Origin: Azoarcus sp.
GTDB lineage: Bacteria > Pseudomonadota > Gammaproteobacteria > Burkholderiales > Rhodocyclaceae
NCBI GenBank assembly: GCA_030656215.1
Contig: JAUSOD010000015.1
Span: forward strand, 1 to 51,739
DNA length: 51,739 nucleotides
Reading direction: 5' to 3'
The notes beneath the pieces are model-generated. The model was not told the origin of the DNA and did no database searches. It saw only the letters and a list, made by a program, of their open reading frames with translations. The position numbers and the translations under genes are program-made. Within the stretch, counting starts at the first letter, position 1; every line of letters begins with the position of its first letter. Shown here piece by piece: positions 1,844-40,076 of this stretch.

Positions 1844-1981
1844 TCAGAGCGACTGGACGAATGCGAGCACTTCCTCGGCGTGGCCGGGCACCTTCACCCC
1901 GCGCCATTCGCGCGCCACCGAGCCGTCGGCCTCGATCACAAAGGTGCTGCGTTCGATGCCGCGTACCTGCTTGCCGTACAT
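1844..1981 (-). pseudogene. bcp: Displaced native 3' end of bcp (peroxiredoxin)
   Basis: From attL to the TGA at 1844-1846 the minus strand encodes YGKQ followed by 40 residues, including ERSTFV, EWRGVKV and EVLAFVQSL. This is the C-terminus of a Bcp/PrxQ peroxiredoxin without its catalytic part. By eye it matches the C-terminus of the complete bcp at the other prophage end at 27 of 40 positions. It is the host's original end, cut off by phage integration, and has no start codon or RBS of its own. It abuts phoH on one side and the integrase stop on the other. Confidence 0.9.
1968..1981. repeat. attL core (14 bp)
   Basis: TGCTTGCCGTACAT is identical to 39745-39758 and lies at the point where bcp homology stops on each side. 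On the minus strand it encodes the peroxiredoxin residues MYGKQ. The crossover must lie within or close to these 14 bp; flanking bases differ (CC versus AT before it, AG versus GT after it). Confidence 0.85.
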
Positions 1982-1996
1982 AGTAAAACCTAGCAT

Positions 1997-3049
1997 TTAT
2001 GCCCCTTTCAGACGTGAGTGTGTCACAGGTGTGACCGTTGCGAGTTCGGGTGGCCGGACGTTGCCGGCGTATTGTGCGACGTAGCTGGGCGCGAGGTGGG
2101 CGTATCGCATGACCATCTCGATCTTGTGCCACCCCCCGAGCTGCTGCAGCGCATGCAGTGGTGTGCCGCCCATGACGTGCCAGCTTGCCCAGGTGTGGCG
2201 AAGGTCGTGCCAGTGGAAGTTCTCCACCTGGGCGGCCTCGAGCGCGGCATACCAGGTGTTGCCGCTGGCCTTGGGGATGGGCTTGCCGTCGGCCTTCGGG
2301 AACACCCAGCGAGGATGCTTGCCCCCCTGCTCCCGCAGGATCTGCAGGGCGTCGTCATTGAGGGGAACGGATAGCGCCACGTCGTTCTTGACGTCCTCGG
2401 CTTCGACCCATGCGGTTTTCAGGGCGAGGTTCACGCGGCTCCACTCGAGGTGGGTGCAGTTGCGCTCCCGCAGGCCCGTGGCCAGGGTGAAGCGGGCGCA
2501 TGCCGCCCACGGTTCGGGCAGTGCCTTGATGAGCCGCTCGGCCTCGTCGTTCATCAGGAATCGGATGCGGCCCTTTGGCTCGCGTAGCTTGCGGATGGCC
2601 GGGGCGCTCTTGATCCATCCCCACGCCACGCACTTGCGCAGCACTTTGCCGAGGATCTCGATGTGCCGGTTGACCGTGGCGGGGCTGGTGGGCTTGGGAG
2701 GGTGCTTGCAGGTGAGCACGGCGCGGCGGCGCTTGATGAGCTCTTCGATCGTCTCTTGATCGATGGTGTCGATGTTGCGGCCGGCCAGGTGTGGGCTTAG
2801 CCACTTCAGCATGGCGGCATCGTGCCACAGGGATTTATGCTGCGCTTCGTCCAGGAATCGGGTAACGGCCTCTTCCCATGTGTGCGCTGGGATCTCGTCG
2901 AGATTGGCCTGCCGCCAAAGCTCGACCTTTACGCGGTCGTGATACTCCTGCGCCGACCGTTTATCAGTGATGCCAGTCGAGCGTCTAATGCGCTGGCCTT
3001 CGTGGCGGATATCGATCCACCAGACATTGCCGCGTTTGATGATCGACAT
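1997..3049 (-). CDS. int: Tyrosine recombinase, phage integrase
   Basis: 350 residues counted from ATG 3049 (MSIIKRGNVWW); an upstream in-frame start at 3103 would add 18 atypical residues inside the excisionase gene. The catalytic set is visible: Arg194 (TGLRERN), His281 and Arg284 (HDLRH), His308 (GGWH) and Tyr316 (MRYAHLA). The N-terminal part matches phage integrase SAM-like/core-binding domains. The stop codon lies 16 bp from the att core, the usual int-next-to-att arrangement. The first 121 bp overlap the 3' end of the excisionase gene, so the two are co-transcribed. It reads toward the bcp remnant and phoH and could supply transcription to phoH. Confidence 0.93.
   Translation of the reverse strand: MSIIKRGNVWWIDIRHEGQRIRRSTGITDKRSAQEYHDRVKVELWRQANLDEIPAHTWEEAVTRFLDEAQHKSLWHDAAMLKWLSPHLAGRNIDTIDQETIEELIKRRRAVLTCKHPPKPTSPATVNRHIEILGKVLRKCVAWGWIKSAPAIRKLREPKGRIRFLMNDEAERLIKALPEPWAACARFTLATGLRERNCTHLEWSRVNLALKTAWVEAEDVKNDVALSVPLNDDALQILREQGGKHPRWVFPKADGKPIPKASGNTWYAALEAAQVENFHWHDLRHTWASWHVMGGTPLHALQQLGGWHKIEMVMRYAHLAPSYVAQYAGNVRPPELATVTPVTHSRLKGA
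2018..2036. repeat. Candidate integrase arm-type site, left
   Basis: GTGTGTCACAGGTGTGACC contains the 6-2-6 inverted repeat GTCACA-GG-TGTGAC and lies inside the 3' end of int, about 40 bp from the att core. A related sequence, CTGTGTCCACATTGTGACC, lies near attR (39585-39603). Position and similarity suggest accessory binding sites for integrase or excisionase. Confidence 0.4.
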
Positions 3050-3246
3050 GGGGGCGCTCTCTTCGGGGATGGCTTGGGCTGGCCGTATTGTGACCGCAGC
3101 CATTCGATAAGATCAACCTCGATAAAAACCCACTGCCGCCCCGGCTTGGCACCGGGCAGGATGCCGGCCCGGGCCTTGCGCTGTACCGCGTCCTCGCTCA
3201 TGTGGAGCAAGGCCGCGGCTTGGGAGAGGTTGAGGGTGGTGAGCAT
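2929..3246 (-). CDS. Excisionase-like DNA-binding protein
   Basis: 105 residues. The first 60 (LNLSQAAALLHMSEDAVQRK, then KPGRQWVFIEVDLIEWLRSQYG) match the MerR-like winged helix of the phage excisionase/HTH_17 family, including the recognition helix and the basic residues after it. The remaining 45 residues are low-complexity and overlap the start of int in another frame. It would bend att DNA and set the direction of Int-mediated recombination. The SD is weak. An 18-bp palindrome (3264-3281) lies 18 nt upstream of the start and is probably an operator. Confidence 0.7.
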   Translation of the reverse strand: MLTTLNLSQAAALLHMSEDAVQRKARAGILPGAKPGRQWVFIEVDLIEWLRSQYGQPKPSPKRAPPCRSSNAAMSGGSISATKASALDARLASLINGRRRSITTA

Positions 3247-3263
3247 GTGCGGGGAAAATGGTC

Positions 3264-3281
3264 CACGTCAAGATTGACGTG
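3264..3281. promoter_or_regulatory. CACGTCAA-GA-TTGACGTG palindrome upstream of xis
   Basis: Perfect 8-2-8 inverted repeat at the junction of the ASCH-like gene stop and the excisionase start. The same arms with a 1-bp spacer occur between the -35 and -10 of the right-end leftward promoter (39479-39495). No obvious -10 follows the left copy. It is inferred to be an operator that links expression at the two prophage ends. Confidence 0.5.
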
Positions 3282-3894
3282 CCCCCCCGCTGCCGACGGT
3301 ATCTGCGCGCCTGAATTCGATCACCCACACCCACGGGTTTGCGGCCCATGATCCGCGGCCGTTGATCTGCTCCCACAGAGTGGAGTAGTCATGAACGGCG
3401 TCATCCCACGCCACTCCTTCTGCCATTGCGTCGGCGTGGCTGATGTCCTGCAGGCGCTCGACGCGGATGGCGGTAATTTCGAGCAGGATGCGGCTGGCGG
3501 CCCTCGGCATGAACATGCCCGGCCGGCACTTTCCGGGCTGCAGGCCTGGCAATCCGCCGAGACGGCCTCCTAAGTCAGCGTCGTACCAGAACGGGACCGC
3601 CAGCGTCCGCCCGGTGTCAGCAACGGGAAGGAGTGACGGCTTGATTCTGTCGTATGCCTTTTCGGTACGGTATGCCTCACGAACCCAAAGCCTTTCGCCG
3701 GGCTGGCCGTATGCCGAATTCGTGTAGTCGCCGACGTTGATTTCTCCGGACAGTTCATGAGGCGCCAGCGCACAGCCAAAGGCGCGGTCATTGCGCGGCT
3801 TCACGGCCCGCCGCGTCTGCGTCTTCGTGCCGGCGAGAATGGCGCGTACCATCGCCGCGCTGAACAAGATGGGGCGCTCTTTCGCTCGGCTCAT
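3268..3894 (-). CDS. Phage ASCH-like (PUA-fold) protein
   Basis: 208 residues. The N-terminus (RPILFSAAMVRAILAGTKTQ, then TRRAVKP) is the hallmark of a phage family often labelled morphogenetic protein, related to ASCH/PUA RNA-binding folds. The conserved TKTQTRR motif is present, as are later aromatic patches (PWVWVIEFRR) near the C-terminus. The start ATG overlaps the stop of the upstream exonuclease gene (ATGA). The family's biochemical role is not established; its place in a leftward early operon argues against a structural role. Confidence 0.65.
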   Translation of the reverse strand: MSRAKERPILFSAAMVRAILAGTKTQTRRAVKPRNDRAFGCALAPHELSGEINVGDYTNSAYGQPGERLWVREAYRTEKAYDRIKPSLLPVADTGRTLAVPFWYDADLGGRLGGLPGLQPGKCRPGMFMPRAASRILLEITAIRVERLQDISHADAMAEGVAWDDAVHDYSTLWEQINGRGSWAANPWVWVIEFRRADTVGSGGARQS

Positions 3895-6403: not shown

Positions 6404-6416
6404 GATGGGCTCCATA

Positions 6417-12616: not shown

Positions 12617-15091
12617 ATGTCCGATCACGCACAGCCGGCACCGTGGGCAGACCTGCCCGCCTACCGTGCCGCCTACCGACTGCGCTGCCCGCCGCCCACC
12701 ACGGCGCCCCCCATGCTGGCGGCCTTGCCGCAGTGGCTGGTGTGGCGCTATGAGCCGGGCGAGACGCCCGAAAAGAAGCCGCGCAAGATGCCGTATTACG
12801 CTTGCGGGCGTAAGCGCTCGGGCGGGGCGGGAAGCCAGGGCAGCGAGCGCGACCGGCGCGACCTGGCAACCTTTGCCGAGGCCTCCGCGGCGGCCATCAA
12901 GGGCGACTTTGACGGGGTAGGGCTGGCCTTTTTGCCGGGCGATGGCCTGATCGGTATCGACCTGGACGGGATGATCAACCCGGAAACCGGCGAGGTGGCG
13001 GAGCGCCTGGCCTCCATCGTGCATGCCTGCGATACCTATACGGAGTACTCCCCCAGCGGCACCGGGGTGCACATCATCGGTGCGGTCACGGCAGAGACGC
13101 AGGAGGCGTTCAAGGCGGAAGGGCGCAAGCTCACGTTCAAGAGCAACAAGATTGGCGTCGAATGTTTTCACGGGGTGCAGTTCTTCACCTGGACCTCGAA
13201 GCCGTGGGGCGGCGCCCCGGCCGATGTACGCCCGGTGGCCACCACGGCATTGCGCCGGCTGTATGTGACGGTGAAGGGTGCGGCTACCCCGGCGCCGGCA
13301 CCGGCCGCCCACCACGCCCCTTCGCCGGCCCCGGTGATCGGTGGCCGGCAGCGCAGCATGGCCGAAAGCGTGGCGCTGGCCGAAGAGGCCCTGCAGCATG
13401 TGGATCCGGGCGAGTACTCGCAGTGGATCACCGTCGGCATGGCGTGCAAGGACCTCGGCGCCGCCGGCTACCTGGTGTGGGATGCCTGGAGCGCCCGCAG
13501 CGACAAGTACGCGGGCGGGGATGACACGGCCAAGCGCTGGGCCGGGTTCGCGCCCACGGATATCCACCTGGGTACGCTGTTCGCACTGGCAGAGCAGGGC
13601 GGGTGGGTGGCGCCCTGGACGAAGGCAAAGGAGCGGCGTGCGCGCTCGCAGCCGCCTGCGCCTGCCTCGCCCCCGGTCGATATGCCACCCGCCGCGACGG
13701 TAGCTCCCGCGGGGGATGTGTCGAGCCCGCCGACATGCGATAGCGATAACCGGGATTCCGGTTATGGCCCCCCGGGCCCCCCGGATGACTTCCCGCCCGA
13801 CGATCTCGGGGGCGATGAGCCGCCGCCGGATTGGGAGGCCGATCTGCTGAAAAAGAAGGGCGATATCTCGCCCTGCCTCGCCAACGCGGAGCTGGTGCTG
13901 TCGTGCATGCACGAGTGGCGCGGGGCGATCGGCTACGACGAATTCGCCGAGAAAACCGCCTACCGCCGCGTGCTGCCCTGCGATCGCAAAGGCAAGCCCT
14001 TTGGCGAATGGACGGACCACCTCGACGCCACCGCGGCCATCTGGCTGCAGCGCCGGTGGGGCGTCGAGTTCTCGCCCTCCACCGTGGGGCAAGCGGTGGA
14101 GGTGCTGGCCCGCCGTCACCCTTTCCACCCCGTGCGCGACGCCCTGGCCGCCCTGCCGCCGTGGGATGGCATCCGGCGTAACGCGGAGTGGCTGTCCGAT
14201 TACCTGGGCGTGGCGCGTACCGAATACGTGGGGCTGGTGGGGCAGTTCTTCCTGCGCGGCATGATCAAGCGCGTGATGGAGCCCGGGTGCAAGTTCGACT
14301 ACTGCCTGGTGCTCGAAGGGGAGCAGGGCAAGGGCAAGAGCGCTGCGGCTCGCATCCTGTCATGGCGCTGGTTCTGTGACACTGACCTTGACCTCAACAA
14401 CAAGGACGCGCTGATGGCGCTGCCTGGGCATTGGGTCTATGAGATCGCGGAGCTCGGGTCTTTGATGAAGGCCGAAGAGCGCAAACAGAAGTCGTTCCTG
14501 TCCCGTCAGGATGACGAGTACCGCCCGCCCTACGGCAAGCGCGTCATCAAGGTGCCGCGCCAGTCCGTGTTCATCGGCACCACGAATGAGGAGGAATACC
14601 TCAAGGACGCCACGGGCGGCCGGCGCTTCTGGCCGGTGATGTGCGGCGAGGAGTTCAACCTGGACGGCCTGCGCGACACCCTTGAGCTGATGCTGGCCGA
14701 AGCGCTGGCCGACTACTACGCGGGCGAGCGCTGCTGGCCCTCGCAAGACGAGCAGCTGCGCCTATTCACCCCCGAGCAGGCCAAGCGCGGCATGCCCGAA
14801 CCGTTCGAGGACTTCCTCTACAAGTGGGTCAATGAGCAGGTTGCACCGTTCTCGATGGCAGATGCCGCTTCCGGGCCGCTGGGGCTGACGCCCGACAAGC
14901 TCACCCCGGCAGTGGTCACCCGGCTGGGCATGGCCCTGCGCAAGCTCGGCTGCACCCGTATCGAGGACCGGCTATCTGCCGACCCGGGCAGGCGCCGCCT
15001 GTACCTGTCGCCCGCGCTCGCAAAGAGCAAGGCGCGGCCCATGCCTGCGCCAGCCATGGTGGGCGATGACGACCACGGGGCGCCCTTCTGA
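12617..15091 (+). CDS. Primase-helicase (PrimPol-like, PriCT-2, VapE/DUF5906)
   Basis: 824 residues. The N-terminus is an archaeo-eukaryotic primase-like domain with the DxD motif GIDLDG at about residue 114 and SPSGTGVHII soon after. A PriCT-2-type linker follows (YSQWITVGMACKDLGAAGYL). After a Pro-rich hinge (about residues 345-410), the C-terminal virulence-associated-E SF3-like ATPase has Walker A GEQGKGKS near 568-575, and the conserved blocks VYEIAELGSL, SRQDDEYRPPYG and FIGTTNEEEYL. It would prime and unwind phage DNA. The repeat array immediately downstream is a natural candidate for its origin. Confidence 0.88.
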   Translation: MSDHAQPAPWADLPAYRAAYRLRCPPPTTAPPMLAALPQWLVWRYEPGETPEKKPRKMPYYACGRKRSGGAGSQGSERDRRDLATFAEASAAAIKGDFDGVGLAFLPGDGLIGIDLDGMINPETGEVAERLASIVHACDTYTEYSPSGTGVHIIGAVTAETQEAFKAEGRKLTFKSNKIGVECFHGVQFFTWTSKPWGGAPADVRPVATTALRRLYVTVKGAATPAPAPAAHHAPSPAPVIGGRQRSMAESVALAEEALQHVDPGEYSQWITVGMACKDLGAAGYLVWDAWSARSDKYAGGDDTAKRWAGFAPTDIHLGTLFALAEQGGWVAPWTKAKERRARSQPPAPASPPVDMPPAATVAPAGDVSSPPTCDSDNRDSGYGPPGPPDDFPPDDLGGDEPPPDWEADLLKKKGDISPCLANAELVLSCMHEWRGAIGYDEFAEKTAYRRVLPCDRKGKPFGEWTDHLDATAAIWLQRRWGVEFSPSTVGQAVEVLARRHPFHPVRDALAALPPWDGIRRNAEWLSDYLGVARTEYVGLVGQFFLRGMIKRVMEPGCKFDYCLVLEGEQGKGKSAAARILSWRWFCDTDLDLNNKDALMALPGHWVYEIAELGSLMKAEERKQKSFLSRQDDEYRPPYGKRVIKVPRQSVFIGTTNEEEYLKDATGGRRFWPVMCGEEFNLDGLRDTLELMLAEALADYYAGERCWPSQDEQLRLFTPEQAKRGMPEPFEDFLYKWVNEQVAPFSMADAASGPLGLTPDKLTPAVVTRLGMALRKLGCTRIEDRLSADPGRRRLYLSPALAKSKARPMPAPAMVGDDDHGAPF

Positions 15092-16871: not shown

Positions 16872-17348
16872 ATGAAAGTCATCGGGCAGCAGGGGGTGGC
16901 GGACATGTTTGGCGTGTCGCGCGAGACGATCGACAACTGGCAGCAGCAAGGTTTGCCGGTATCGGTCCGGGGTGGCCCGGGCGTACCGAGCGAATACGAC
17001 TCCGCCCCCTGCGTCCGCTGGCTGATCGAAAGGGAGCTCCGCAAGGTGCGGTCAGAGTCGCCGAACGACCGATTGGCGCGCGTGCGAGCTGACGCGATCG
17101 AGATGGACAATGCCGAGCGGCGTGGCACGCTGATTCCGGCCGACCTCCTCGAGCCAAAGCTCAAGGCCGCGATGATTGCCGCCCGCGAAATGCTGCTGAA
17201 TGAGCCCCCGCGCCTGGCACGCGACGCCCAGGGGAAGACCGTGCAAGAGCTCGAGGACATGCTTTCCGCCGCGTTCGAGGGCTTCCTGACGGCCCTGTCG
17301 CGCTGGTCGGACCCTGAAGATGATGACCTCCTCGAGGACGGCGAATGA
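16872..17348 (+). CDS. Terminase small subunit, Nu1-like
   Basis: 158 residues. An N-terminal winged-helix DNA-binding domain (GQQGVADMFGVSRETIDNWQ, QQGLPV) is typical of Nu1, which recognises cos. A central basic helix (RLARVRADAIEMDNAERRGT) and a C-terminal acidic helix probably contact the large subunit. Length is close to lambda Nu1 (181). The stop overlaps the large-subunit ATG (ATGA), the usual coupling. Confidence 0.85.
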   Translation: MKVIGQQGVADMFGVSRETIDNWQQQGLPVSVRGGPGVPSEYDSAPCVRWLIERELRKVRSESPNDRLARVRADAIEMDNAERRGTLIPADLLEPKLKAAMIAAREMLLNEPPRLARDAQGKTVQELEDMLSAAFEGFLTALSRWSDPEDDDLLEDGE

Positions 17349-19573
17349 CATTCGACGGGGGCGGTCTCTCGCTTGCTGAAGTGACGCCCGACGGGTGGGC
17401 CAAGCGTGCGCTGGCGGCGATGATGCAGCGTGCGCTTGCGGAGATCGCTCCGCGGGAGCCGCTCACGCTGATCGAGTGGGCAGAGCGATACCGCATCCTG
17501 TCGAAAGAAGAGGCGAATGATTTCGCCGGGCCGTTTGACCTCAACAACACGCCGGCCCTGCGCGGCATCCTGGCCGCGCTGAGCGATCGCAACACCCGCC
17601 GCTGCATCGTCCAGAAAGCGGCGCAACAGGGCTATACCGCGGGGGTCGTGTGTACGGTGCTCGGCTACCACGTGCACTGGAAGCCATGCGTCCAGGTCGT
17701 CATGTTCCCGCGCGAAAAATCCGCCAAGGATTTCGACGCGGAGAAATTCGCGCCGATGGTCCGGGCCACCCCGGCCCTCTACAAGCGCATCCGCCTCAAG
17801 AGCCGCAGCGACGGCAACAGCGCCACCCGCAAGCACTACGCGGGCGGTCTGGCCAAGTTCGTGGCGTCGAACTCGCCTAGTGACCTGAAGTCGACAAGCG
17901 CCAAGGTCCGCATCGTCGAAGAGCCCGACGACACCAACAAAAACGTGAAGGGGCAGGGCAATGCCATCTCGCTGTTGCGCGAGCGCGGCAAAACCGTGCG
18001 CGAGTCGCTCGAGCTGATCGGCGGCACGCCCACGGCCAAGGGCGCGAGCGAGATCGAAAAGGAAATGCGCACCACCGACCAGCGCCGCTTCCTCGCCCCT
18101 TGCCACCACTGCGGCGAGCGGCACGAAGTCGAGTGGGCGCACGTCGTCATCCCCGGGCTGCAGCTCAGTGACGAAGAGCTTCGCGCCCCGGATCTCGATG
18201 CTCGGTTCCCCGTGCGCGAGGTGTACGGCCGCGCCCGGCACGAAGATGCGTTCTATGTCTGCCCGCACTGCGGGGGGCTCTGGACCGACGATGACCGCAT
18301 TGCCAACATCCGCGCCGCGGCAAAGGTGCCGCCGCTGTACGGATGGGAGCCCACCGCCCCAAATCCCGACCCCGGCTTCTACTGCAACGAACTGCAGAGC
18401 GTATTCGACGGCTCTCACGTGCCGATCCTGGCGGAGAAGTTCCTCCGCGCGCAGCACCTCATGGACCGCGGCGACCCCACCGAGATGGTCGCGTTCTGGA
18501 ACAGCACCCGCGGCATGTGCTGGGAATACAAGGGCGAGCTCCCCGAAGAGGACGAACTCGCCGCCCGTGCCGAGCCCTACCCCGAGTGGGGCACCCCCGC
18601 CGGCGGGCTGGTGCCCACGATGTCGGTCGACGTCCAGCACGATCGCCTGGCTGTCACCGTGTGGGTGGTCGGCCGCGGTGAGGAAATGTGGCTCGCCTAC
18701 TGGGGCGAGCTGTACGGGCAAACCGTCGTCGCCCACCAAGGCGCGTGGATCGAGCTCGAGCAGCTGCTCGGCAAAACCGTGCGCCACGCCAGCGGCACCC
18801 CCATGTCCATCGCCGCGGTCGGTATCGACTGCTCCGACGGTCAGACCTCCGATGCCTCTTACGCATTCGTGCGCAAGCACAACCGCCCCGGCCGTCCGGT
18901 GCTCGCCCTCAAGGGCGCGTCCGAGATCGAAGGCAAGGTCGAGATCTGGACACCGCCCAAGCCCATCGACCCCAACAACCGCAGCACCAAGGCCAGCCGA
19001 TTCGGCGTCCAGGTGCATATTGTCGGCGCTGCAAAGGCCAAGGATCTGATACTCGGCTGGGCGCAAGAGGGCGGCCGCGTCCGCCTGGTGGGCGATGGCC
19101 CCGGCCGGATGCACTGGTATATCGGCGTGCGCGGCGACTTCTTCGAGCAGTTGCTCGGCGAAATGAAAGTGCCCAGCCGGCTCAACCCCAACAAGCGCTA
19201 CTGGAAGGCCCGCACCGACCGCCGCAACGAGGCGCTCGACTGCACCGTCTACGCGCTCTACCTCAGCCGCCACCTCCGCCTGCACCTCCGCCGGCCGGCG
19301 CAGTGGGATGTGATCGAGATGACCATGCGCCAGGGCGTGCTGATCCCCATCGATGACACCCCGCCCCCCGATGTGCAGACGTCTGCGCTACCAGATCCGG
19401 ACCCCATCGAACCCGATGCAGACGCCCCGCAAAGCGGAACGGATACCCCGGAAAGCGAAACGGAAGCGCCCGAAACCGAAACGCCCGCCCCCGATCTGCG
19501 CGCCACCCTGGCCGCCCAGGCCTTCGCCAACCTCCTGTCGCAGAGGAGGGCGCGCCATGGCGTCCGGCGATAG
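17345..19573 (+). CDS. Terminase large subunit, GpA family
   Basis: 742 residues, the packaging motor and nuclease of lambda-type phages. The N-terminus has the GpA pattern (LTLIEWAERYRILSKEEAND), an ATPase P-loop region near residue 90 (CIVQKAAQQGYTAG) and Walker-B-like IVEEPDD near 195. Zinc-knuckle-like Cys pairs (PCHHCGERHE and VCPHCGG) lie between, as in other GpA proteins. The second half contains the RNase H-like nuclease (SVDVQHDRLAVTVWVVGRG, AVGIDCSDGQTSD). A Pro/Glu-rich tail overlaps the next gene by 17 bp. Confidence 0.92.
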   Translation: MTFDGGGLSLAEVTPDGWAKRALAAMMQRALAEIAPREPLTLIEWAERYRILSKEEANDFAGPFDLNNTPALRGILAALSDRNTRRCIVQKAAQQGYTAGVVCTVLGYHVHWKPCVQVVMFPREKSAKDFDAEKFAPMVRATPALYKRIRLKSRSDGNSATRKHYAGGLAKFVASNSPSDLKSTSAKVRIVEEPDDTNKNVKGQGNAISLLRERGKTVRESLELIGGTPTAKGASEIEKEMRTTDQRRFLAPCHHCGERHEVEWAHVVIPGLQLSDEELRAPDLDARFPVREVYGRARHEDAFYVCPHCGGLWTDDDRIANIRAAAKVPPLYGWEPTAPNPDPGFYCNELQSVFDGSHVPILAEKFLRAQHLMDRGDPTEMVAFWNSTRGMCWEYKGELPEEDELAARAEPYPEWGTPAGGLVPTMSVDVQHDRLAVTVWVVGRGEEMWLAYWGELYGQTVVAHQGAWIELEQLLGKTVRHASGTPMSIAAVGIDCSDGQTSDASYAFVRKHNRPGRPVLALKGASEIEGKVEIWTPPKPIDPNNRSTKASRFGVQVHIVGAAKAKDLILGWAQEGGRVRLVGDGPGRMHWYIGVRGDFFEQLLGEMKVPSRLNPNKRYWKARTDRRNEALDCTVYALYLSRHLRLHLRRPAQWDVIEMTMRQGVLIPIDDTPPPDVQTSALPDPDPIEPDADAPQSGTDTPESETEAPETETPAPDLRATLAAQAFANLLSQRRARHGVRR

Positions 19574-21026: not shown

Positions 21027-22655
21027 ATGCGCCTGCTCTCCCGCCTATTCTCCCGCGGCGAATCCTCAGCCGATCGCGGCGCCTGGCTCGACACCGCCAT
21101 CCAGACCGCCGGCGAACGCGCGCACAACCGCTATCTGCAAGAGATGCGCACCGCGCAACGCAGCTTCGAAACTGCCGAAACCCCCGCGTGGACCGAGTCG
21201 TGGCCCTCGCACGCTGCGCCCATCAATGACGACCTCGCCCGCCAGCTGCCCACCCTGTGGGCCCGCTCCTGCGGCCTGGCGCGAAACAACGAATGGGCGC
21301 AGCGCTACCTCATCGAGCTCGACGACAACGTGCTCGGCCCCGCCGGCATGCAGCTGCAAATGCGCCTCACCCAGCGCGTTCGCGGTGGCGCCGACCCCGT
21401 TCCCGACAAAGCCGCAAACGATCTCCTCGAAGCCGCGTGGGCGAAGTGGGGCGACAGCGATTGCGAAGCATCCGGCCTGCCGTGGTTCGAAGTTGAAACC
21501 CTCGCCCTCAACACCCTCGCGCGTAAGGGCGAACTGCTGTACCGCATTCTCCCCGGCGCCGGCCCCATGCGCTTCCAGATCCAGCTGCTCGACCCCGTGC
21601 TCATCGATGTCAGCCTCAATCGCATCTGGGGCGGCAACCGCATCCGCATGGGCAAAGAGATCGACGACGCCGGCAAGCCCGTCGCTTTCTGGCTGCAAAT
21701 GGCAAAGACCGGTGACGGCCCCGCCGACTACATCACCGTCGGCCGGCACATGCGCGTGCCCGCCGCGGAGATCCGCCACCACTACCTGGTGGAAGAGGTC
21801 GGCCAACTGCGCGGCATCCCCTGGCTCACCGTCGGCGCCCGCCGGCTGTGGATGCTGCACGACTTCGAAGAGGCCGCCGCGGTGGCCAGCTCCAACGCCG
21901 CCAAGCGGCAGGGCTTTTTCTTCTCGCCCACGGGCGAGGCCCCGGCCGGCTTTGCCGACACCATGATCTCCAGCGTGCTCGACGCCGCCAAAGCCGCCGG
22001 CAAAGTCCTCTCGCCGGACGAGATCCAGGCGCTCACCGCCGCCGCGGAAAAGTACGCCACCACCGTGCCCGGCCAGTTCGACACCCTGCCGCAGGGCTAC
22101 CAGTTCCAGCCGTTCGAAAGCAAGTGGCCCACCATCAGCTCCGAGAGCTACGTCAAGCAACAAGTGCGCGGCTGGGCCGCCGCCAGGGGTATGTCGTATG
22201 TCTCGATCGGCAACGACCTCGAGGCGGTCAATTACTCCAGCGCCCAAGTCGGCATCCTCGGCGAGCGTGAGCACCACAAAAAAACCCAAACCCGCCTGCG
22301 CAACTGGCTGCACCGCGAAGTGTTCGCCGCCGCGCTCCCGTACCTGGTGCTCGCCACCCCCGGCCTGTCCGCCTCGCGCCTCCCCGAATACCTGGCCGCC
22401 GCGTCCTGGCAGCCGCGCCGCTGGGCACCGCTCGACCCGATCAAGGCCGCCAACGCCGCAGAGATCCGCCTCCGCCTAAAGCTCACCAGCCGCCGCCGCC
22501 TGGCGCTCGAAGCCGGCGAGGACCCGGACGAGATCGCCGCCGAAGTCGCGGCCGAAGAAGTCATGTACGGCAAGCTCGACAGCGAAAACATGCCCCGCCC
22601 GAAAGAAGAGCCGGACGAAGACGGCACCCCCGCTAAACCCAGTAAAAAGGAATGA
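21027..22655 (+). CDS. Portal protein, lambda GpB family
   Basis: 542 residues, similar to lambda GpB (533). Characteristic blocks are LWARSCGLARNNEWAQRYLI, VLGPAGMQLQMR, ARKGELLYRILPGAGPMRFQ, QLLDPVLIDV and RGMSYVSIGNDLEAVNYSSA. It forms the dodecameric DNA-entry ring at one capsid vertex. The C-terminal tail is Lys/Glu/Pro-rich. It starts 3 nt after the connector gene and its stop overlaps the next ATG. Confidence 0.92.
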   Translation: MRLLSRLFSRGESSADRGAWLDTAIQTAGERAHNRYLQEMRTAQRSFETAETPAWTESWPSHAAPINDDLARQLPTLWARSCGLARNNEWAQRYLIELDDNVLGPAGMQLQMRLTQRVRGGADPVPDKAANDLLEAAWAKWGDSDCEASGLPWFEVETLALNTLARKGELLYRILPGAGPMRFQIQLLDPVLIDVSLNRIWGGNRIRMGKEIDDAGKPVAFWLQMAKTGDGPADYITVGRHMRVPAAEIRHHYLVEEVGQLRGIPWLTVGARRLWMLHDFEEAAAVASSNAAKRQGFFFSPTGEAPAGFADTMISSVLDAAKAAGKVLSPDEIQALTAAAEKYATTVPGQFDTLPQGYQFQPFESKWPTISSESYVKQQVRGWAAARGMSYVSIGNDLEAVNYSSAQVGILGEREHHKKTQTRLRNWLHREVFAAALPYLVLATPGLSASRLPEYLAAASWQPRRWAPLDPIKAANAAEIRLRLKLTSRRRLALEAGEDPDEIAAEVAAEEVMYGKLDSENMPRPKEEPDEDGTPAKPSKKE

Positions 22656-24167: not shown

Positions 24168-26267
24168 ATGACAACCGCCGCCACCCGCCAGCGCATCGAA
24201 GGCACCTTGCACCGCAGCCTGCCGGCCACGCTCAGCATTCGCGAAGCCACCCCCGGCCAAACCGATGACGGCCTGCTGCGCCTGCGCCTCTCCGTGTCGT
24301 CGGAGATCCCCTACCTTCGCGCGAGCTGGTGGGACGAGCCGTGGATCGAGGTGCTCGGCCACAAGGCCGGCGAAATCGACATGGCCCGCCTCAACGGTGG
24401 CGCCGCGGTGCTCGCCAATCACGACCGCTACGCCGCCCACGGCAACACCCCGCTGGCCTCCATCGGCGTGGTCGAACGCTCGTGGCTCGAAGGCGATCGC
24501 CTGCTCTCCGACGTCGTCATCAGCCGCCGCGAAGCGCTCGCCGACCTCCGGCAAGACATCGCCGACGGCCTGGTGCGCAACGTCTCCATCGGCTACCAGA
24601 TCAACGAGCGCACGCTCACCCGCACCAGCGCCGAAGGCCAGCCCAACGAATACCGCGTCACCAGCTGGACCCCCTTCGAGATCTCGCTCGTCGATATCCC
24701 CGCCGATGCCACCGTCGGCCTCGGCCGCTCGGCCGACCCCAGCAACCCCCAATCTTCCGCCCCGCATTACCGCGTGGTGGACCTGCCCGCCGAGGGCGCA
24801 ACCCCAGGAGATCGCTCCATGACCACAGCAGCAGCTACCCCGGCGGCCACCCCCACGCCCGCCACCCAGCAACCCACCCCGGCCGCCCGCGCGCAAGTCG
24901 ACGGCGTCGATTCCCTGGCCGCAGAGCGCGAGCGTGCCCGCGAAATCCGCGCCCTGGGCCGCTCGCTCGACATGAGCGAACTGGCCGATGGTGCCATCGA
25001 CAACGGCACCAGCCTCGACGGTTTCCGCCAGCTCGTGCTCAGCCGCATGAAAGACACCGGCAACCTCCGCCCCGCCGAATCGCCGGACATCGGCATGAGC
25101 GAGCGCGACGTCAAGCAGTACAGCTTCTGCCGCGCCTTGCTCGCCGCGTCCGACCCCCTCAACGCCGCCAAGCTCGCCCCGTTCGAAACCGAATGCTCCC
25201 GTGCCGCGCAAGACAAGCGCGGCGACTCCCGCGACAAAACCCGCGAAGCCGCCGTTACCATCCCCATCGATGTCCTGTCGCGCGGCATCCAGATCGGCGG
25301 TGACGTTGCCAACGCCGTCGCCCGCCAGCTCGTGGCCCGTGCGCAGCAAACCAGCCGCGACGCCTACCGCGACCTCACCGTCGGCGCCCCCACCGGTGGC
25401 GGCAACCTGGTTGCCACCGAGCTGCTCGGCTCCAGCTTCATCGACCTCCTGCGCCACACCATGGTGCTCGACCAGCTCGGCGTCACCTGGCTGCGTGACT
25501 TGAACGGAAACATCGCCATCCCCAGCCAGACCGGTGCCGCCACCGCCTACTGGGTGGCCGAAAACGGCGCCACCACCGAATCCGCCCAAACGGTCGGCCA
25601 GGTCACCCTCACCCCCAAGACGGTCGGCGCCTTCACCGACTACTCCCGCCGCCTGCTCCTGCAGTCCTCGCTCGACGTCGAAGCCTTCGTGCGTGCCGAC
25701 CTGGCCGCCATCATCGGCCAGGCCATCCAGCTCGCCGCCATCCTCGGCGGTGGCACCAACGAGCCCGTCGGCTTGCTCAACACCTCCGGCATCGGCTCGG
25801 TGGCCGGTGGCGCAGCGGGTGCCGCGCCCACGTATGAGCACATGGTGGATCTGGAAACCGCCGTCGCCAACGCCAACGCCGATGTCGGCACGCTCGCTTA
25901 CCTCACCAACTCCCGCGTGCGCGGCAAGCTGCGCAAAACGCAGGAATTCGCCAGCACCAACGGCAAGGCCGTGTGGACCTCTGGCCGCGAACGTGGCATT
26001 GGCGACGTGCTCGGTTACGACGCCGCCGTCAGCAACGCCGTGCCCAACAACCTCGTCAAGGGCGGCTCTGGCGCCGTGTGCTCCGCCATCGCCTTCGGCA
26101 ACTGGGCCGACATGCTTATCGGTATGTGGGGCGGGCTCGATGTGATGCTCGACCCCTACACCGGCGCCATCAGCGGCACCAAGCGTGTGGTTGCCCTGCA
26201 GGACGTCGACGTAGCCATCCGCCGCGTAGCCTCTTTCGCCGCCATGAAAGACGCCCTCACCACGTAA
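24168..26267 (+). CDS. HK97-type prohead protease fused to major capsid protein
   Basis: 699 residues. Residues 1-190 are an HK97-type (U35) prohead protease, with likely catalytic His85 (VLANHD) and Ser140 (RNVSIGYQ), then FEISLVDIPAD. A Pro/Ala/Thr linker (about 215-245) and a helical scaffold-like delta region follow. From about residue 360 comes the HK97-fold capsid protein (LVATELLGSSFIDLLRHTMV, NIAIPSQTG, YWVAENGATTESAQ, SSLDVEAFVRADLA, DVDVAIRRVASFAAM). Many phages have separate genes; here one frame encodes both, with an internal start at 24819. Confidence 0.92.
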   Translation: MTTAATRQRIEGTLHRSLPATLSIREATPGQTDDGLLRLRLSVSSEIPYLRASWWDEPWIEVLGHKAGEIDMARLNGGAAVLANHDRYAAHGNTPLASIGVVERSWLEGDRLLSDVVISRREALADLRQDIADGLVRNVSIGYQINERTLTRTSAEGQPNEYRVTSWTPFEISLVDIPADATVGLGRSADPSNPQSSAPHYRVVDLPAEGATPGDRSMTTAAATPAATPTPATQQPTPAARAQVDGVDSLAAERERAREIRALGRSLDMSELADGAIDNGTSLDGFRQLVLSRMKDTGNLRPAESPDIGMSERDVKQYSFCRALLAASDPLNAAKLAPFETECSRAAQDKRGDSRDKTREAAVTIPIDVLSRGIQIGGDVANAVARQLVARAQQTSRDAYRDLTVGAPTGGGNLVATELLGSSFIDLLRHTMVLDQLGVTWLRDLNGNIAIPSQTGAATAYWVAENGATTESAQTVGQVTLTPKTVGAFTDYSRRLLLQSSLDVEAFVRADLAAIIGQAIQLAAILGGGTNEPVGLLNTSGIGSVAGGAAGAAPTYEHMVDLETAVANANADVGTLAYLTNSRVRGKLRKTQEFASTNGKAVWTSGRERGIGDVLGYDAAVSNAVPNNLVKGGSGAVCSAIAFGNWADMLIGMWGGLDVMLDPYTGAISGTKRVVALQDVDVAIRRVASFAAMKDALTT
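24805..24821 (+). promoter_or_regulatory. Internal RBS and start for free capsid precursor
   Basis: CAGGAG, 9 nt, then ATG at 24819, in frame with the protease-capsid gene (codon 218, MTTAAATPAATP). It falls exactly at the linker between protease and scaffold/capsid. It would let the capsid precursor be made in excess over the fusion, in the manner of lambda C/Nu3. Confidence 0.6.
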
Positions 26268-26904: not shown

Positions 26905-27378
26905 ATGGCCGCGCTCACCGTCTGGCAAATCGAAACCGCCTTCCTCGCCCGGCTGGCCGCCCACCCCGGCGCCCCCGCCGGCACGCTCATTCACCAGGCC
27001 GGCACCCCGGCAGACGGCACCGTGCCCGTGCTCTATCGCACGCTCGACGCCATCGACTGGACAGACCCCGCCGCGGCCCCCATCGTCGGCGGTCAGCTCG
27101 TGTTCGGTGGCTACCTGGTGCAAGACCAATCGCCCCCGGCCACCGCCCTGGCAGAGCGCTGGGCGTTCGACGTCTACATCGATCTCGCCCGTGCCACCCC
27201 GGCCCACCGCAACGCCCTGTGCGCCCTGGTCGTAGCCGCCGCCAGCTGCATCCCTGGCTGGTACCCCCGCCCGGGGCTCGATGCCCGCCTGGTCGAAAGC
27301 GAGCCCACTGGCATCGAACCCCGTGCCGCCCGCATCAGCATTGCCTTTGTCACCCCCGTCATCCTCACCGGAATTTAA
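26905..27378 (+). CDS. Tail terminator/completion protein
   Basis: 157 residues, beginning directly after the previous stop. Pattern LTVWQIETAFLARLAAHPGA, then AERWAFDVYIDLARATPAHR and RISIAFVTPVILTG. This resembles gp37/gpU-type small tail proteins that cap the tail tube. Position before the tail tube gene agrees. Assignment rests on order and size more than on a motif. Confidence 0.6.
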   Translation: MAALTVWQIETAFLARLAAHPGAPAGTLIHQAGTPADGTVPVLYRTLDAIDWTDPAAAPIVGGQLVFGGYLVQDQSPPATALAERWAFDVYIDLARATPAHRNALCALVVAAASCIPGWYPRPGLDARLVESEPTGIEPRAARISIAFVTPVILTGI

Positions 27379-27388
27379 GGAGCACCCC

Positions 27389-28141
27389 ATGTCCATCAAA
27401 GCCTACCGCGGTTTCGGAAAAATCAAGATCGCCGCATTTGAGGAAGGCGTGCCCTTCCACAGCCTCGGCTTCCGCGACCCCGGCAACGCCAGCGCGTTCG
27501 CGCTATCCGCGGCCGAGCAGTCCGAAGATCTGCCCGACTACACCTCCGCCGCCGGTGGCGTCGACGCCTCCTATCGCCGCGTCGAGAGCGTCTCCGGCAA
27601 TGCCGACCTCCGTCACTACACCCCGCAAAACCTCGCCCAGGTCTTCTGGGGTGCGGCCAACGACTACACCGGCGCCGTCGTCGCGGCCGAAGCCACCGTG
27701 TTCCGGCCCGGGATGTTCGTGCCCACCAAGAACCTCATCGACCTCAGCGTGCCGGTGGTCATCTCCAAGAGCGCCACCCCCATCAATACGGCGGACTATG
27801 TCGCCAGCCCGGCCGGCGTCACCTTCGCGCTCACCGCCGCCACCGCCGGCCTCATCGCGGGCGATGCCATCACCATCGGCTACACCTCGGCCGACTCCAC
27901 CAACATCGAAGCCCTCATCGAAACCGCCCCGCGCGTGGCCATGCTGTTCGAGGGCGTCAACGCCGTGGACGCCAAGCCGCTTGTGGTCGCCATCTGGAAA
28001 GCCCGCCTTGGCATCGCCTCCAGCACGGCGCTGATCGGCGACGGCTTCGGCACCCTGCCCATCGGCTACACGGTCGAGAAGGACAGCCGCATCGTCACCC
28101 CCGGCCTGTCGCAGTACTTCAAGGTCCTGGTCGGCGCGTAA
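27389..28141 (+). CDS. Major tail tube protein
   Basis: 250 residues from ATG 27389 (RBS AAGGAGCACC). Beta-rich, with an N-terminal half typical of siphovirus tail tube subunits (FGKIKIAAFEEGVPFHSLGF) and an Ig-like or variable segment in the middle (YVASPAGVTFALTAATAGLI). The C-terminus repeats the compact strand pattern (TVEKDSRIVTPGLSQYFKVL). It is followed by the chaperone pair and tape measure, the standard order. Confidence 0.75.
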   Translation: MSIKAYRGFGKIKIAAFEEGVPFHSLGFRDPGNASAFALSAAEQSEDLPDYTSAAGGVDASYRRVESVSGNADLRHYTPQNLAQVFWGAANDYTGAVVAAEATVFRPGMFVPTKNLIDLSVPVVISKSATPINTADYVASPAGVTFALTAATAGLIAGDAITIGYTSADSTNIEALIETAPRVAMLFEGVNAVDAKPLVVAIWKARLGIASSTALIGDGFGTLPIGYTVEKDSRIVTPGLSQYFKVLVGA

Positions 28142-28144
28142 CCC

Positions 28145-28531
28145 ATGGCCACGCTCCCCGTTCCCACCCCGGCGCGCATCCTCACCGTGCATGAAATCAC
28201 GGTGCAGCAGGTGCGCGACTGGGCCGTGTCCATCGACACCGGCCTCGTCCCGCTCGACCCCGTCGGCGAGCTCCTGCACCCGGAGTGCGCCCTGGCCGAT
28301 CTCGTCCTCATGTCCGACGCCACCCCGGCGGAGATCGAGCAATGCACCTCCGCGCAGCTGGATCACCTGGTGGCCACGGCAAAGGCACTCAACCCGCATT
28401 TTTTCCGGGTCCGGGCGGCGCTCCAGGGTGTCGCCCGGCAGATCTCGCAAAGCATCTCGAGCGCACCTGCGCCCACCTCGTCTGCCGCGGTCACGCCAAC
28501 GTCTGGGCCTACCCCTACGCCGTCTACCTGA
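28145..28531 (+). CDS. Tail assembly chaperone, short form (gpG-like)
   Basis: 128 residues in the zero frame. The helical first 90 residues (LTVHEITVQQVRDWAVSIDT, then DHLVATAKALNPHFF) precede a Ser/Thr/Pro tail that is the out-of-frame sequence of the long form. Together with the long form it would bind the tape measure protein during tail assembly, as lambda G and GT do. The start is 3 nt after the tail tube stop. Confidence 0.8.
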   Translation: MATLPVPTPARILTVHEITVQQVRDWAVSIDTGLVPLDPVGELLHPECALADLVLMSDATPAEIEQCTSAQLDHLVATAKALNPHFFRVRAALQGVARQISQSISSAPAPTSSAAVTPTSGPTPTPST

Positions 28532-28566
28532 GCGCGCTCGACCACCTCAACGCCGGCCAGGAGTAA
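28145..28566 (+). CDS. Tail assembly chaperone, frameshifted long form (gpGT-like)
   Basis: Produced by a -1 shift at 28399-28405: 87 codons in the first frame, then CCG at 28405 onward, giving about 140 residues. The second frame carries a well-formed domain (CRPADLAKHLERTCAHLVCR, then ANVWAYPYAVYLSALDHLNA) that has no start of its own and ends 3 nt before the tape measure gene. This is the classical G/GT arrangement of long-tailed phages. Confidence 0.8.
28399..28405 (+). other. Programmed -1 frameshift site T TTT TTC
   Basis: In the zero frame the codons are CAT TTT TTC, so the heptamer fits X XXY YYZ exactly and both tRNAs can re-pair after slipping back one base. The -1 frame is open from here to 28566 and encodes the GT domain. 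GC-rich sequence downstream may fold to stimulate slippage. Confidence 0.82.
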
Positions 28567-28569
28567 ACC

Positions 28570-30957
28570 GTGGCGACTGAATACAAAGTAAAACTCAGCG
28601 GCGACAGCACCGGCCTGGTGCGGGCAACGCAGCAGGGGCAGGGCGCCCTCAAGCGCCTGTCCGCCGAGCTTACCGGCATGCAGGCGCTGGCCTCAAAGGC
28701 GCTCAACTTTGCCGGGGTAGGGGGCTTGAGCGTGGCCGCAGTGGGCGGCAGCTTTGTCGCCATGGCCCGCAATGTGGCCGGCACCGCTAAGCAAATCAAG
28801 ATTCTGTCGGAGGTCTCCAACACCAGCGCGGAAGACTTCCAGCGCCTCGCCTATGGCGCCAAGTCAGTCGGCATCGAGCAAGACAAGCTGGCCGACATTT
28901 TCAAGGACACGCAAGACAAGGTCGGCGACTTCCTCGAAACCGGCGCCGGGCCCCTCGCCGATTTCTTCGAGAACATCGCCCCCCGCGTGGGCGTCACCGC
29001 AGAGCAGTTCCGCAACCTGTCCGGCCCCCAGGCCCTGCAGCTCTACGTGAGCTCGCTGGAAAAAGCCAACCTCTCGCAATCGGAGATGACTTTCTACATG
29101 GAAGCTATCGCCAGCGATTCGGCCCGCCTGCTGCCCCTGCTACGGGAAAACGGCAAGGGGTTTCGGGAGGCGGGCGAAGAGGCGGCAAAGCTGGGTGCCA
29201 TCATGGGTGAGGATCTGGTGCAGAAGGGGATTGAACTTGAAAAAAGTTTCGAGAAGCTACAGACCTACAGCAAGGGGTTTGGCATCGCGATTGCCTCCGA
29301 GGTTATCCCGGCGCTGAACAACTTGGCCGGTGAGTTCGCCAACGCTCGAACAGCAGGGCTGAGCTTTATGGAGGCGCTGGTGGGCGTTGGCCTGTCCAAT
29401 CCTGGCAAGAGCCCTGCCGAGCAGATCGCCGCCCTGGCCAACGAAGTCGAGCGCCTCCAGCGCGGCAACCTCGGCGAAGTAAACCTGCTCGAAAAGCTCG
29501 CCCCGGAAGAATCCATCCGCATCGCACAGGGCAAGCTCAAGTACTTCCAGCTCGAGCTCCAGCGCGACGCCAGCACCTCGCAGGCCGCACTGGCAAACCT
29601 CGGCGGCGAGCTCGCCACCATCCAGGGCAACATTGCCAAGCTGGAGCAGGTGCAGGCCGATCGCGGCGGCTACCTCAACAACTTCGACAAGGCCAGCCTC
29701 GCCCGCTTCAAGCAAGAGGCCGCCGCCCTGCAAACCCGCATTGCCGAGCTGCAGAAGATCGTGGATCAGTATGCCAAGGTCGACACCGGCAGCAACCCCG
29801 AAGTCGTCGCGCTGGAGAAGGAAAAGCAGGCCGCGATTCAGCGCCTTCTGCTGGGAACAACAGCAGCCCGCCGGCAGGCGGCACAAGACGAAATCACCGC
29901 AGCAAAGGCCACAAAGCGGGCGCTTGAAGAGGCGTGGAAGGCAGCTACAGAAGGCGCGAAGGCCGCTGCCGCCGAAGCCAAAAACCTCATGCAGCAAGCT
30001 GCCGAAGCCCGCCAGTCTGGCACCGATCGCGCGGCGGACCGCCGTATGCGGGGTGCAACTGATGAGGAGAAAGACAGCTTTGCCCGCCGTCAGGTGCGCG
30101 ACCTGTCCGACCAAGCCCGCCGATCCACCGTATTTGCACAAAACGCGGGGTTCGATGGCAACCTCACCCGTGCCGCCCAGCTCGCAGCAGAGGCCGCAAA
30201 GTATGCCGAGCGTGCGGAGAAGTTCGCCGATCAGATCACGGACGATGGCGACGCGGCGAACGCCATTGAAAAAATTGCGGAACTCAAAGCGCAGGCGTTG
30301 GAAACAGCCGCAAAAGTTGAGGCGACTGTTTCCGAACAAAAGACTGATGAGGCCGGCCGTATAGCGTCTCAAATTAAATACGCCACGGATCTAGTTGACT
30401 CACTGCAAGCCAAGGCAAAAGGCCTGCAGCTCGTCATAGACCCCACGCAAGCAAAGGCCGAGCTCGACTGGCTTCAAGCCAAGCTCGACGCCATCAAAGA
30501 CAAAACCGTCACCGTCACCGTGGCCACCGTGGACGCCGCCGCCCCCAATCCGGGCACCCCGGCCGACGTGCTCCCGGCGCGCGCCTACGGAGGTCCGCTC
30601 CCTGGGCGCGCCACCAGCGATCGTGCCGACAATGTGATCTACCGCGGCACCCCTGGAGAGTGGGTTATCCAGCGCCCTGCCGTGCGTCACTGGGGCGAAG
30701 GGTTCTTGCGCGCCATCAATGAAATGCGCCTGCCAGCGTTTGCCGATGGTGGCCGCATTCCGGGTCAGTCCCTGATCAACAATATCGGCCCCGGCTTCAT
30801 CGCATCAAGTCATGCCGACAGCGCCGCCGCGCATACGCCCATCACGCTACAGTGGCCCGACGGAACAAGCGCACAAGTCACGGCAAAAGAGTCGGTCGCC
30901 AAGGAAATCGTCAGCACCTTCCGCCGCGCCGCACTCGCCCGGGGTGGCCGTCGATGA
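28570..30957 (+). CDS. Tail tape measure protein
   Basis: 795 residues, mostly helical, with long Ala/Gln/Lys/Glu coiled-coil stretches (about 290-640). The N-terminus is typical (EYKVKLSGDSTGLVRATQQG), hydrophobic segments lie near 45-65 (FAGVGGLSVAAVGGSFVAMA), and the C-terminus is Gly-rich (LINNIGPGFIASSHADSAAA). It sets tail length; at roughly 1.5 angstrom per residue the tail would be near 120 nm. Directly after the chaperone pair, and overlapping the next gene by ATGA. Confidence 0.88.
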   Translation: MATEYKVKLSGDSTGLVRATQQGQGALKRLSAELTGMQALASKALNFAGVGGLSVAAVGGSFVAMARNVAGTAKQIKILSEVSNTSAEDFQRLAYGAKSVGIEQDKLADIFKDTQDKVGDFLETGAGPLADFFENIAPRVGVTAEQFRNLSGPQALQLYVSSLEKANLSQSEMTFYMEAIASDSARLLPLLRENGKGFREAGEEAAKLGAIMGEDLVQKGIELEKSFEKLQTYSKGFGIAIASEVIPALNNLAGEFANARTAGLSFMEALVGVGLSNPGKSPAEQIAALANEVERLQRGNLGEVNLLEKLAPEESIRIAQGKLKYFQLELQRDASTSQAALANLGGELATIQGNIAKLEQVQADRGGYLNNFDKASLARFKQEAAALQTRIAELQKIVDQYAKVDTGSNPEVVALEKEKQAAIQRLLLGTTAARRQAAQDEITAAKATKRALEEAWKAATEGAKAAAAEAKNLMQQAAEARQSGTDRAADRRMRGATDEEKDSFARRQVRDLSDQARRSTVFAQNAGFDGNLTRAAQLAAEAAKYAERAEKFADQITDDGDAANAIEKIAELKAQALETAAKVEATVSEQKTDEAGRIASQIKYATDLVDSLQAKAKGLQLVIDPTQAKAELDWLQAKLDAIKDKTVTVTVATVDAAAPNPGTPADVLPARAYGGPLPGRATSDRADNVIYRGTPGEWVIQRPAVRHWGEGFLRAINEMRLPAFADGGRIPGQSLINNIGPGFIASSHADSAAAHTPITLQWPDGTSAQVTAKESVAKEIVSTFRRAALARGGRR

Positions 30958-39424: not shown

Positions 39425-39471
39425 TTTCTTTCCCCGGGTCGGTGGTCGGCGTCATCGCCTTCCATGTCTGT

Positions 39472-39499
39472 ATATTAGCACGTCAATTTGACGTGTCAA
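39472..39499 (-). promoter_or_regulatory. Sigma-70 promoter with embedded palindromic operator
   Basis: On the minus strand TTGACA (39499-39494), a 16-bp spacer and TAATAT (39477-39472). The spacer is filled by CACGTCAA-N-TTGACGTG (39479-39495). The arms equal those of the palindrome upstream of xis (3264-3281). It drives the cluster 39424 to 38695. Beyond it, 39500-39617 has no gene. Confidence 0.7.
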
Positions 39500-39584
39500 T
39501 AGACTTTCAAACTATTTTGGCCTGACCCGACTCCGAGTCCGCATAGCAATCGCCGTGCCACACTGTGTCTAAACCTTGTCCGCG

Positions 39585-39603
39585 CTGTGTCCACATTGTG
39601 ACC
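39585..39603. repeat. Candidate integrase arm-type site, right
   Basis: CTGTGTCCACATTGTGACC resembles 2018-2036 near attL, and a partial copy (CTGTGTCTAAACC) lies 22 bp away at 39563. It stands between the right-end promoter and attR, the expected place for P-arm sites. Confidence 0.4.
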
Positions 39604-39617
39604 ACTATTGACCAGAT

Positions 39618-40076
39618 TCAACCAAGTGAGCGCACATATGCAAGGACTTCGTCGGCGTGCCCGGACACCTTCACCCCGCGCCATTCCTTGGCAATCCGGC
39701 CGGTTTCATCCAGTACGAAAGTGGACCGCTCGACGCCCCGCGATTGCTTGCCGTACATGTTCTTCATCTTGATCACGCCAAAGATGTTGCACGCCACTTC
39801 TTCGGCATCCGAGATCAGGTCGAAGGGCAACTCGAGCTTGGCCTTGAAGTTTTCGTGGGACTTAAGGCTGTCGCGCGAAATGCCGAAGACCTCGCACCCG
39901 GCAGCGGTAAACGCAGCATGGAGCGCGCCGAAGTCACGGGTCTCGTTGGTGCAGCCCGGGGTGTTGTCCTTGGGGTAGAAATACAGGGCGACTTTTTTTC
40001 CGCGCAATGCCGAAAGGGTCACGGTGTTGCCGCCGGTGGCCGGCAGGCTGAATTCGGGAAGAAGAGAATCGGTCAT
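39618..40076 (-). CDS. bcp: Peroxiredoxin Bcp/PrxQ, host-phage hybrid gene
   Basis: 152 residues, thiol peroxidase that reduces hydroperoxides in the cytoplasm. Peroxidatic Cys42 sits in TPGCTNETRDF; a second Cys61 (AAGCEVFGIS) may resolve it. RBS AGGAG precedes ATG 40076. Codons 1-106 are host DNA, residues 107-111 (MYGKQ) are the att core, and the last 41 residues come from the phage (SRGVERSTFVLDETGRIAKE...). They replace the native end now stranded at 1844-1967. Differences are conservative, so activity is probably kept. Confidence 0.92.
   Translation of the reverse strand: MTDSLLPEFSLPATGGNTVTLSALRGKKVALYFYPKDNTPGCTNETRDFGALHAAFTAAGCEVFGISRDSLKSHENFKAKLELPFDLISDAEEVACNIFGVIKMKNMYGKQSRGVERSTFVLDETGRIAKEWRGVKVSGHADEVLAYVRSLG
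39745..39758. repeat. attR core (14 bp)
   Basis: TGCTTGCCGTACAT, identical to 1968-1981. To its right bcp is host sequence up to the start codon; to its left the bcp frame continues in phage-carried DNA to a stop at 39618. Confidence 0.85.

Follow-up and report, generated by a model that had tools for sequence, protein, structure and literature searches.

A prophage within bcp

The 51,739-nt contig JAUSOD010000015.1 of Azoarcus sp. (assembly GCA_030656215.1), one whole contig that is hereafter called the window, carries a lambda-type prophage of 37.8 kb inside bcp, a peroxiredoxin gene (Table 1). The prophage is bounded by two copies of a 14-nt core, ATGTACGGCAAGCA, which is found exactly twice in the window (+ strand, 1968-1981 and 39745-39758). 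Both copies lie in the same reading frame, and the core plus the next base encodes the residues MYGKQ.

At the right attachment site (attR) the reading frame is intact across the junction and ends in element DNA, giving a hybrid bcp (40076..39618, minus strand) of 152 aa that matches the AhpC-TSA family (E 1e-33) and is composed of 106 host-like codons, the core, and then 41 phage codons and a stop. At the left site (attL) a bcp fragment (1981..1844, minus strand), with 40 codons and a stop beyond the core, lies directly upstream of phoH. Joined in silico, the host flanks (the 5' part and the left fragment) read as an uninterrupted Bcp of 151 aa. Beyond the core, 27 of 40 residues are alike in the two tails (95 of 135 nt with the core codons included), and the left fragment was recovered by a whole-genome DNA search at E 1.2e-12; given this match, and the same-genus genomes that identify the native copy (below), the similarity between the tails is not due to chance. 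No tRNA or tmRNA gene was detected in the window using ARAGORN, and the core sits in bcp rather than in a gene of that kind. The initial annotation had described a prophage that enters bcp at an MYGKQ core and brings its own 3' end, with 41 phage-supplied codons, 40 stranded native codons and 27 agreeing positions; all three counts were reproduced here.

In four further same-genus genomes, phoH follows bcp and no prophage is present. The fragment beside phoH agrees with their tails at 41, 41, 41 and 44 of 45 residues (core codons included) and at 85-89% of nucleotides; the corresponding values for the tail that now ends bcp are 33, 32, 32 and 32 residues and 66-69% of nucleotides. By this comparison, the tail beside phoH is the native one. 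We profiled 92 prophage-free loci in total: the 4 from the same genus, 27 from the loci of one search, 60 fetched later and 1 from a Dechloromonas host, with two duplicates of same-genus genomes, the window's own locus and 51 of the 141 genomes of the underlying search left out. The empty site reads as one uninterrupted bcp in all 92, and phoH is directly downstream on the same strand in 88. Among the other four, one contig (L072) ends 63 nt past bcp, and three loci (L224, L237 and L251) encode a full-length Bcp with a native-like tail and have other neighbours. The window's core is identical in 28 of the 92 hosts. A phage-type tail beside phoH in prophage-free relatives had been named as evidence against the initial annotation; none of the 92 loci has a tail that groups with the phage type, and the four same-genus genomes carry the displaced type.

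There is next to no probability that the left fragment arose by an old duplication of bcp, or is a pseudogene, independently of the integration. Such an origin might account for the DNA identity of only 70% between the two tails, but the fragment is 85-89% identical in DNA to the same-genus native tails, stands at the native place before phoH and starts at the core, and two other integrase-flanked tails (described below) start at the same codons. The same-genus comparison and the 151-aa product of the joined flanks contradict that origin. For annotation, this means that the 152-aa bcp is a host-phage hybrid, and that the fragment beside phoH is the displaced native end rather than a decayed pseudogene.

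Recurrence at the same bcp codons

Two further loci, both with related integrases, have bcp tails that start at the same codons. In virus contig IMGVR_UViG_3300045973_001487 (L037) the order is an integrase (61% identical), a 204-aa open reading frame (ORF), the core, a bcp tail and phoH (72% identical). The bcp tail is native-like (35 of 40 residues shared with the nearest host tails), and, read from its gene content, this contig is an attL in another host. It was found through phoH and recovered again by a two-sequence integrase alignment; a scan of viral contigs with the integrase protein alone gave no relative.

The second locus is an 8,744-nt contig, JAABQV010000052.1 (L088), of a Dechloromonas metagenome-assembled genome (MAG), on which an integrase (59% identical) is followed by the core, a bcp tail, a repeat pair and the contig end. 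Its tail ends in RSLG, as does the window's phage tail. Since integrase, core, phage tail and repeats are together on this contig, and an intact bcp with phoH after it is present at another place in the same MAG, this contig reads like the phage attachment site (attP) of an unintegrated relative. At the level of sequence, it is well supported that the integration system is real and recurring.

Among 102 integrase loci scanned for a bcp tail, only the window's own, the Dechloromonas contig and L142 (the same record as the virus contig) had one, and in 30 order-level integrase loci the only match was at the window's own locus. A degenerate DNA pattern for the core codons matched the virus contig record only. 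In 399 genomes of the order, with a cutoff of E 1e-60, the window's own integrase scored 713 bits and the runner-up 351 bits. Among deposited phages, 650 records match the integrase, every one at <60% identity (the 30 listed at 38-41%), and in none of the 27 records matching Bcp does the match start at the core, the latest start being residue 83.

An in-frame ATG occurs just ahead of the core in the window (MLGFT-MYGKQ), in the virus contig (MHFFSLNK-MYGKQ) and in the Dechloromonas contig (MRFN-MYGKQ), and a short Bcp-tail peptide could be translated from it, downstream of int. An ORF with an HTH_17 domain is found in the virus and Dechloromonas contigs at the place equivalent to that of the window's candidate excisionase. 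The 204-aa ORF of the virus contig (4190-4801) had no Pfam match up to E 1; its start is similar to the N-terminal domain of the integrase (41% over 41 aa, E 1.25e-4), and by eye its end has an HNH-like appearance.

Proposed integration and the phage-borne tail

As a whole, the data are very probably best explained by a lambda-type phage that integrates in bcp, where the phage tail completes a hybrid Bcp and the native tail is stranded. We infer that the tyrosine integrase of a temperate phage would recombine at the 14-nt core in the MYGKQ codons, ~70% along bcp. The attP would consist of an integrase-side arm, the core, a phage copy of the last 41 bcp codons closed by its own stop, and a second arm containing the pair of direct repeats. 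On integration, the 5' part of the host gene is fused to the phage tail at attR, the end far from int, and the native tail is left between int and phoH at attL. A lysogen would then produce hybrid Bcp at full length, and the native bcp would be re-formed if the prophage excised exactly. In the lysogen, phoH is located downstream of int on the same strand, parted from bcp by the prophage, and its expression may differ from the usual.

Just past the phage tail are two repeats, TGGTCACA and TGGACACA, 11 bp apart, that represent the only exact matches to TGKWCACA in the 51.7-kb window (at 39586 and 39597). A TGKWCACA pair with the same 11-bp spacing has the same place after the tail in the Dechloromonas contig. 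By analogy with lambda, these pairs are taken as putative integrase arm sites; if they are, the bcp tail would lie between the core and the second arm, and therefore inside attP. RNA folding downstream of the tail revealed no notable structure (z -1.06).

The window's phage tail keeps 21 of the 22 columns that are conserved in at least 90% of the 92 hosts, and the hybrid aligns with the solved structure 5enu over residues 3-151 of 152 (E 1.8e-58); its alignments with structures that bear the name Bcp extend to residues 148-149. The RSTF motif holds the conserved active-site arginine of peroxiredoxins, for which reason a truncated Bcp would probably be inactive, with the phage tail supplying this arginine. 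Judging from the conserved residues, the cell probably keeps a working but hybrid peroxiredoxin. It is improbable that the hybrid is inactive or reduced in activity, its frame kept open and its function lost, so that the prophage amounts to a partial knock-out. Differences at 13 of 40 residues and the V6 to S change in a highly conserved column would fit this, but the other 21 conserved columns and the alignment with solved Bcp-type structures nearly to the last residue argue for an active enzyme. Among the 46 residues of the window's phage tail (core codons included), every one of the first 45 is present at its column in at least one of the 92 host proteins; for this reason, no adaptive meaning should be attached to the "altered" tail.

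In a DNA tree of 95 tails, the phage tails of the window and of the Dechloromonas contig form one clade against the 93 others (98 bootstrap, 95 by the Shimodaira-Hasegawa-like approximate likelihood ratio test, SH-aLRT). The nonsynonymous (dN) and synonymous (dS) divergences are 0.278 and 1.39 between the two phage tails (ratio 0.20), and 0.294 and 1.01 between the window's phage and native tails (ratio 0.29). Going by these ratios, the tail protein has been under constraint, though not necessarily inside phages.

Several observations weigh against parts of the proposed explanation. A search of the virus contig record found no second bcp piece, and attR is not reached in it. The Dechloromonas contig stops ~40 nt past the stop of its tail, with the second arm only partly visible, and lacks the terminal repeat that would indicate a circle. 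Its core differs from that of the MAG's own bcp at 3 of 14 positions (and equals the core of 5 of the 92 hosts), so the contig may come from another host or may be misbinned. The integrase-side arm motif is weak in the window (no exact match, one with one mismatch), and on the integrase side TGKWCACA has one exact match in the Dechloromonas contig and no exact match in the virus contig. For the tails, the tree is based on 120 columns and its bootstrap is unsettled, and the two phage tails are alike at 26 of 40 residues, no closer than the 27 of 40 between the window's phage and native tails. Of the 22 highly conserved columns, only 18 are kept in the phage tail of the Dechloromonas contig. The two dN/dS ratios are similar and thus do not show that selection acted in phages. 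Rare residues common to both phage tails are not significant alone, as host pairs reach this count in 7.8% of cases.

We regard it as somewhat unlikely that the tail derives from a bacterium not yet sampled, perhaps acquired by each phage on its own, and is merely carried along in attP, its coding appearance having been inherited from the donor rather than maintained by the phage. The resemblance of the dN/dS ratios, the small number of columns behind the phage-tail clade and the occurrence of the first 45 residues among hosts would fit such an origin, as would the mean identity of the phage tail to hosts (25.3 of 40), which is within the hosts' own range (lowest host mean 24.3). On the other side, the two phage tails group together and not with any host tail, and no host tail matches that of the window's phage at more than 30 of 40 residues or 68% of nucleotides. 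At the other extreme, we consider it quite doubtful that the bcp tail is a long-resident phage module, selected across host genera, by which the phage would set the properties of the lysogen's Bcp, i.e., a lysogenic conversion by protein-tail replacement, with the separation of bcp from phoH as part of the effect.

Integrase family, target orientation and related systems

The integrases beside bcp tails form one clade, both in a quick tree (SH-aLRT 100, three members) and in a careful tree (100/100, two members) that was built without the virus contig and five others. To profile the targets of their wider relatives, we used 127 integrase matches, of which 96 were full-length with at least 150 nt past the stop, 93 of these not beside bcp. 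A tRNA gene starts within -60 to 400 nt of the integrase stop in 63 of the 93 loci, each convergent with int and at a median distance of 36 nt. A few of the 93 loci are present in both of two collections; once identical proteins were merged and a minimum identity of 37% was applied, the tRNA gene was found in 55 of the 78 non-bcp rows. The rows without a detected tRNA gene are mixed through the integrase tree. The statement of the initial annotation that integration into the 3' end of a protein gene with a carried replacement is rarer than tRNA targeting thus holds within this integrase family as sampled. The pattern suggests that the bcp clade is most simply a switch from a tRNA to a protein gene target.

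In the window, bcp and int are read from the same strand; the displaced fragment lies next to int, and the regenerated gene is found at the opposite end of the prophage. For the tRNA-adjacent relatives, the geometry of convergence would place the regenerated copy on the int side (their att sites are unmapped), and the target orientation in the bcp prophage therefore appears to be reversed relative to theirs. The title of a 2002 report by Zhao and Williams (cited in PMC6563490) refers to an element that reverses the usual target-gene orientation, as the bcp prophage appears to do.

Phage 21 and the element e14 integrate in the same manner, into icd of E. coli. Excerpts of PMC11148124 place the e14 insertion after codon 362, with a displaced segment of 165 bp, 12 nt differences and two conservative residue changes over 54 codons; those of PMC6379469 give 163 bp and one conservative change. 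As in e14 and icd, the phage studied here enters the 3' part of a protein gene, provides an in-frame replacement end and leaves the native end at the opposite junction (PMC6379469 and PMC11148124, as excerpted). Unlike e14, it has bcp rather than icd as the target, and 13 of 40 residues differ here versus the one or two changes in those excerpts.

Elements in tRNA genes also carry the end of their target gene, which integration regenerates, and target genes were switched often in integrase evolution (Islander; PMC4383910, in part). The bcp prophage is similar to tRNA-gene prophages and islands of this class in that it carries the end of its target, and the wider relatives of its integrase are mostly beside tRNA genes. 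It differs in having a protein gene as the target, and in that the regenerated gene is far from int here and, by geometry, on the int side in the tRNA-adjacent relatives. Among thaumarchaeal elements with defined sites, 14 of 68 are in 3'-distal regions of protein genes, and one has a replacement stop codon (PMC6563490, excerpted text). Those elements are archaeal and have other targets, and the replaced stretch in the example given in that text is eight nucleotides and non-homologous, unlike the 41 homologous codons here.

The initial annotation supposed that bcp is not a standard phage target, and no account of bcp as a phage target was found in the literature searched; this is weak evidence of absence, most subscription papers being outside the search. 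In the accessible part of PMC9535894, "peroxiredoxin" occurs in a reference title only. The proposed mechanism is that of e14 and icd, here with a target that is new as far as searched (bcp), a far more diverged tail, and a target orientation opposite to that in the tRNA-adjacent relatives. A widely conserved redox gene is added to the known phage targets, and the integrase clade suggests a target switch to a protein gene, with orientation reversed, within a mostly tRNA-adjacent family. With two diverged phage-borne tails it can be asked whether phages keep borrowed gene ends functional, for which the near-identical icd copy of e14 is hardly suited.

Table 1 Features of the bcp locus and of the prophage in the window
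Feature	Position	Strand	Evidence
phoH, usual gene after bcp	389..1843	-	Pfam PhoH E 8.9e-47
Displaced native bcp tail (40 codons and stop)	1844..1967	-	Same-genus identity
attL core, 14 nt	1968..1981	-	Exact copy of the 39745-39758 core
Tyrosine integrase, end 15 nt from core	1997..3103	-	Pfam Phage_integrase E 3.1e-28; PHROG 1 integrase
Small helix-turn-helix protein, candidate excisionase, overlaps start of integrase ORF	2929..3246	-	HTH_17 E 1.7e-12; PHROG excisionase E 1.4e-9
Phage primase/helicase	12617..15091	+	PHROG 15962 E 3e-286
Terminase small and large subunits	16872..19573	+	Phage_Nu1, GpA_ATPase, GpA_nuclease
Portal protein, lambda family	21027..22655	+	Phage_portal_2 E 1.5e-64
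Major head protein, possibly with protease part	24168..26267	+	PHROG 617 E 1.1e-130; PHROG 4523 E 1.1e-52
Major tail protein (27281-28141) and tape measure protein (28570-30957)	27281..30957	+	PHROG 807; PHROG 2854
Two putative arm-type sites, TGGTCACA and TGGACACA, 11 bp apart, just past phage tail	39586..39604	-	TGKWCACA matches
Phage-supplied bcp tail (last base of fifth core codon, 41 codons, stop)	39618..39744	-	Tail comparison, DNA tree
attR core, 14 nt	39745..39758	-	Exact copy of the 1968-1981 core
Host-derived 5' part of bcp (106 codons and att core)	39745..40076	-	82-91 of 106 residues as in four same-genus Bcp; AhpC-TSA

Features of a lambda-type temperate phage are present between the cores, i.e., a gpA-type terminase, a lambda-family portal, the integrase and a repressor-like gene (weak match), as well as an exonuclease gene. 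The repressor-like helix-turn-helix gene is near attR (38695-38982) and matches PHROG 7950 weakly (E 1.4e-7). A phage ORF at 4484-6490 (668 aa) matches ParB-like partition proteins in PHROG (E 7.6e-40), with a weaker match to a DNA methyltransferase. Between the portal and head genes, an ORF at 22652-23974 (440 aa) without a PHROG match has a sub-threshold match to GDSL lipase/acylhydrolase.

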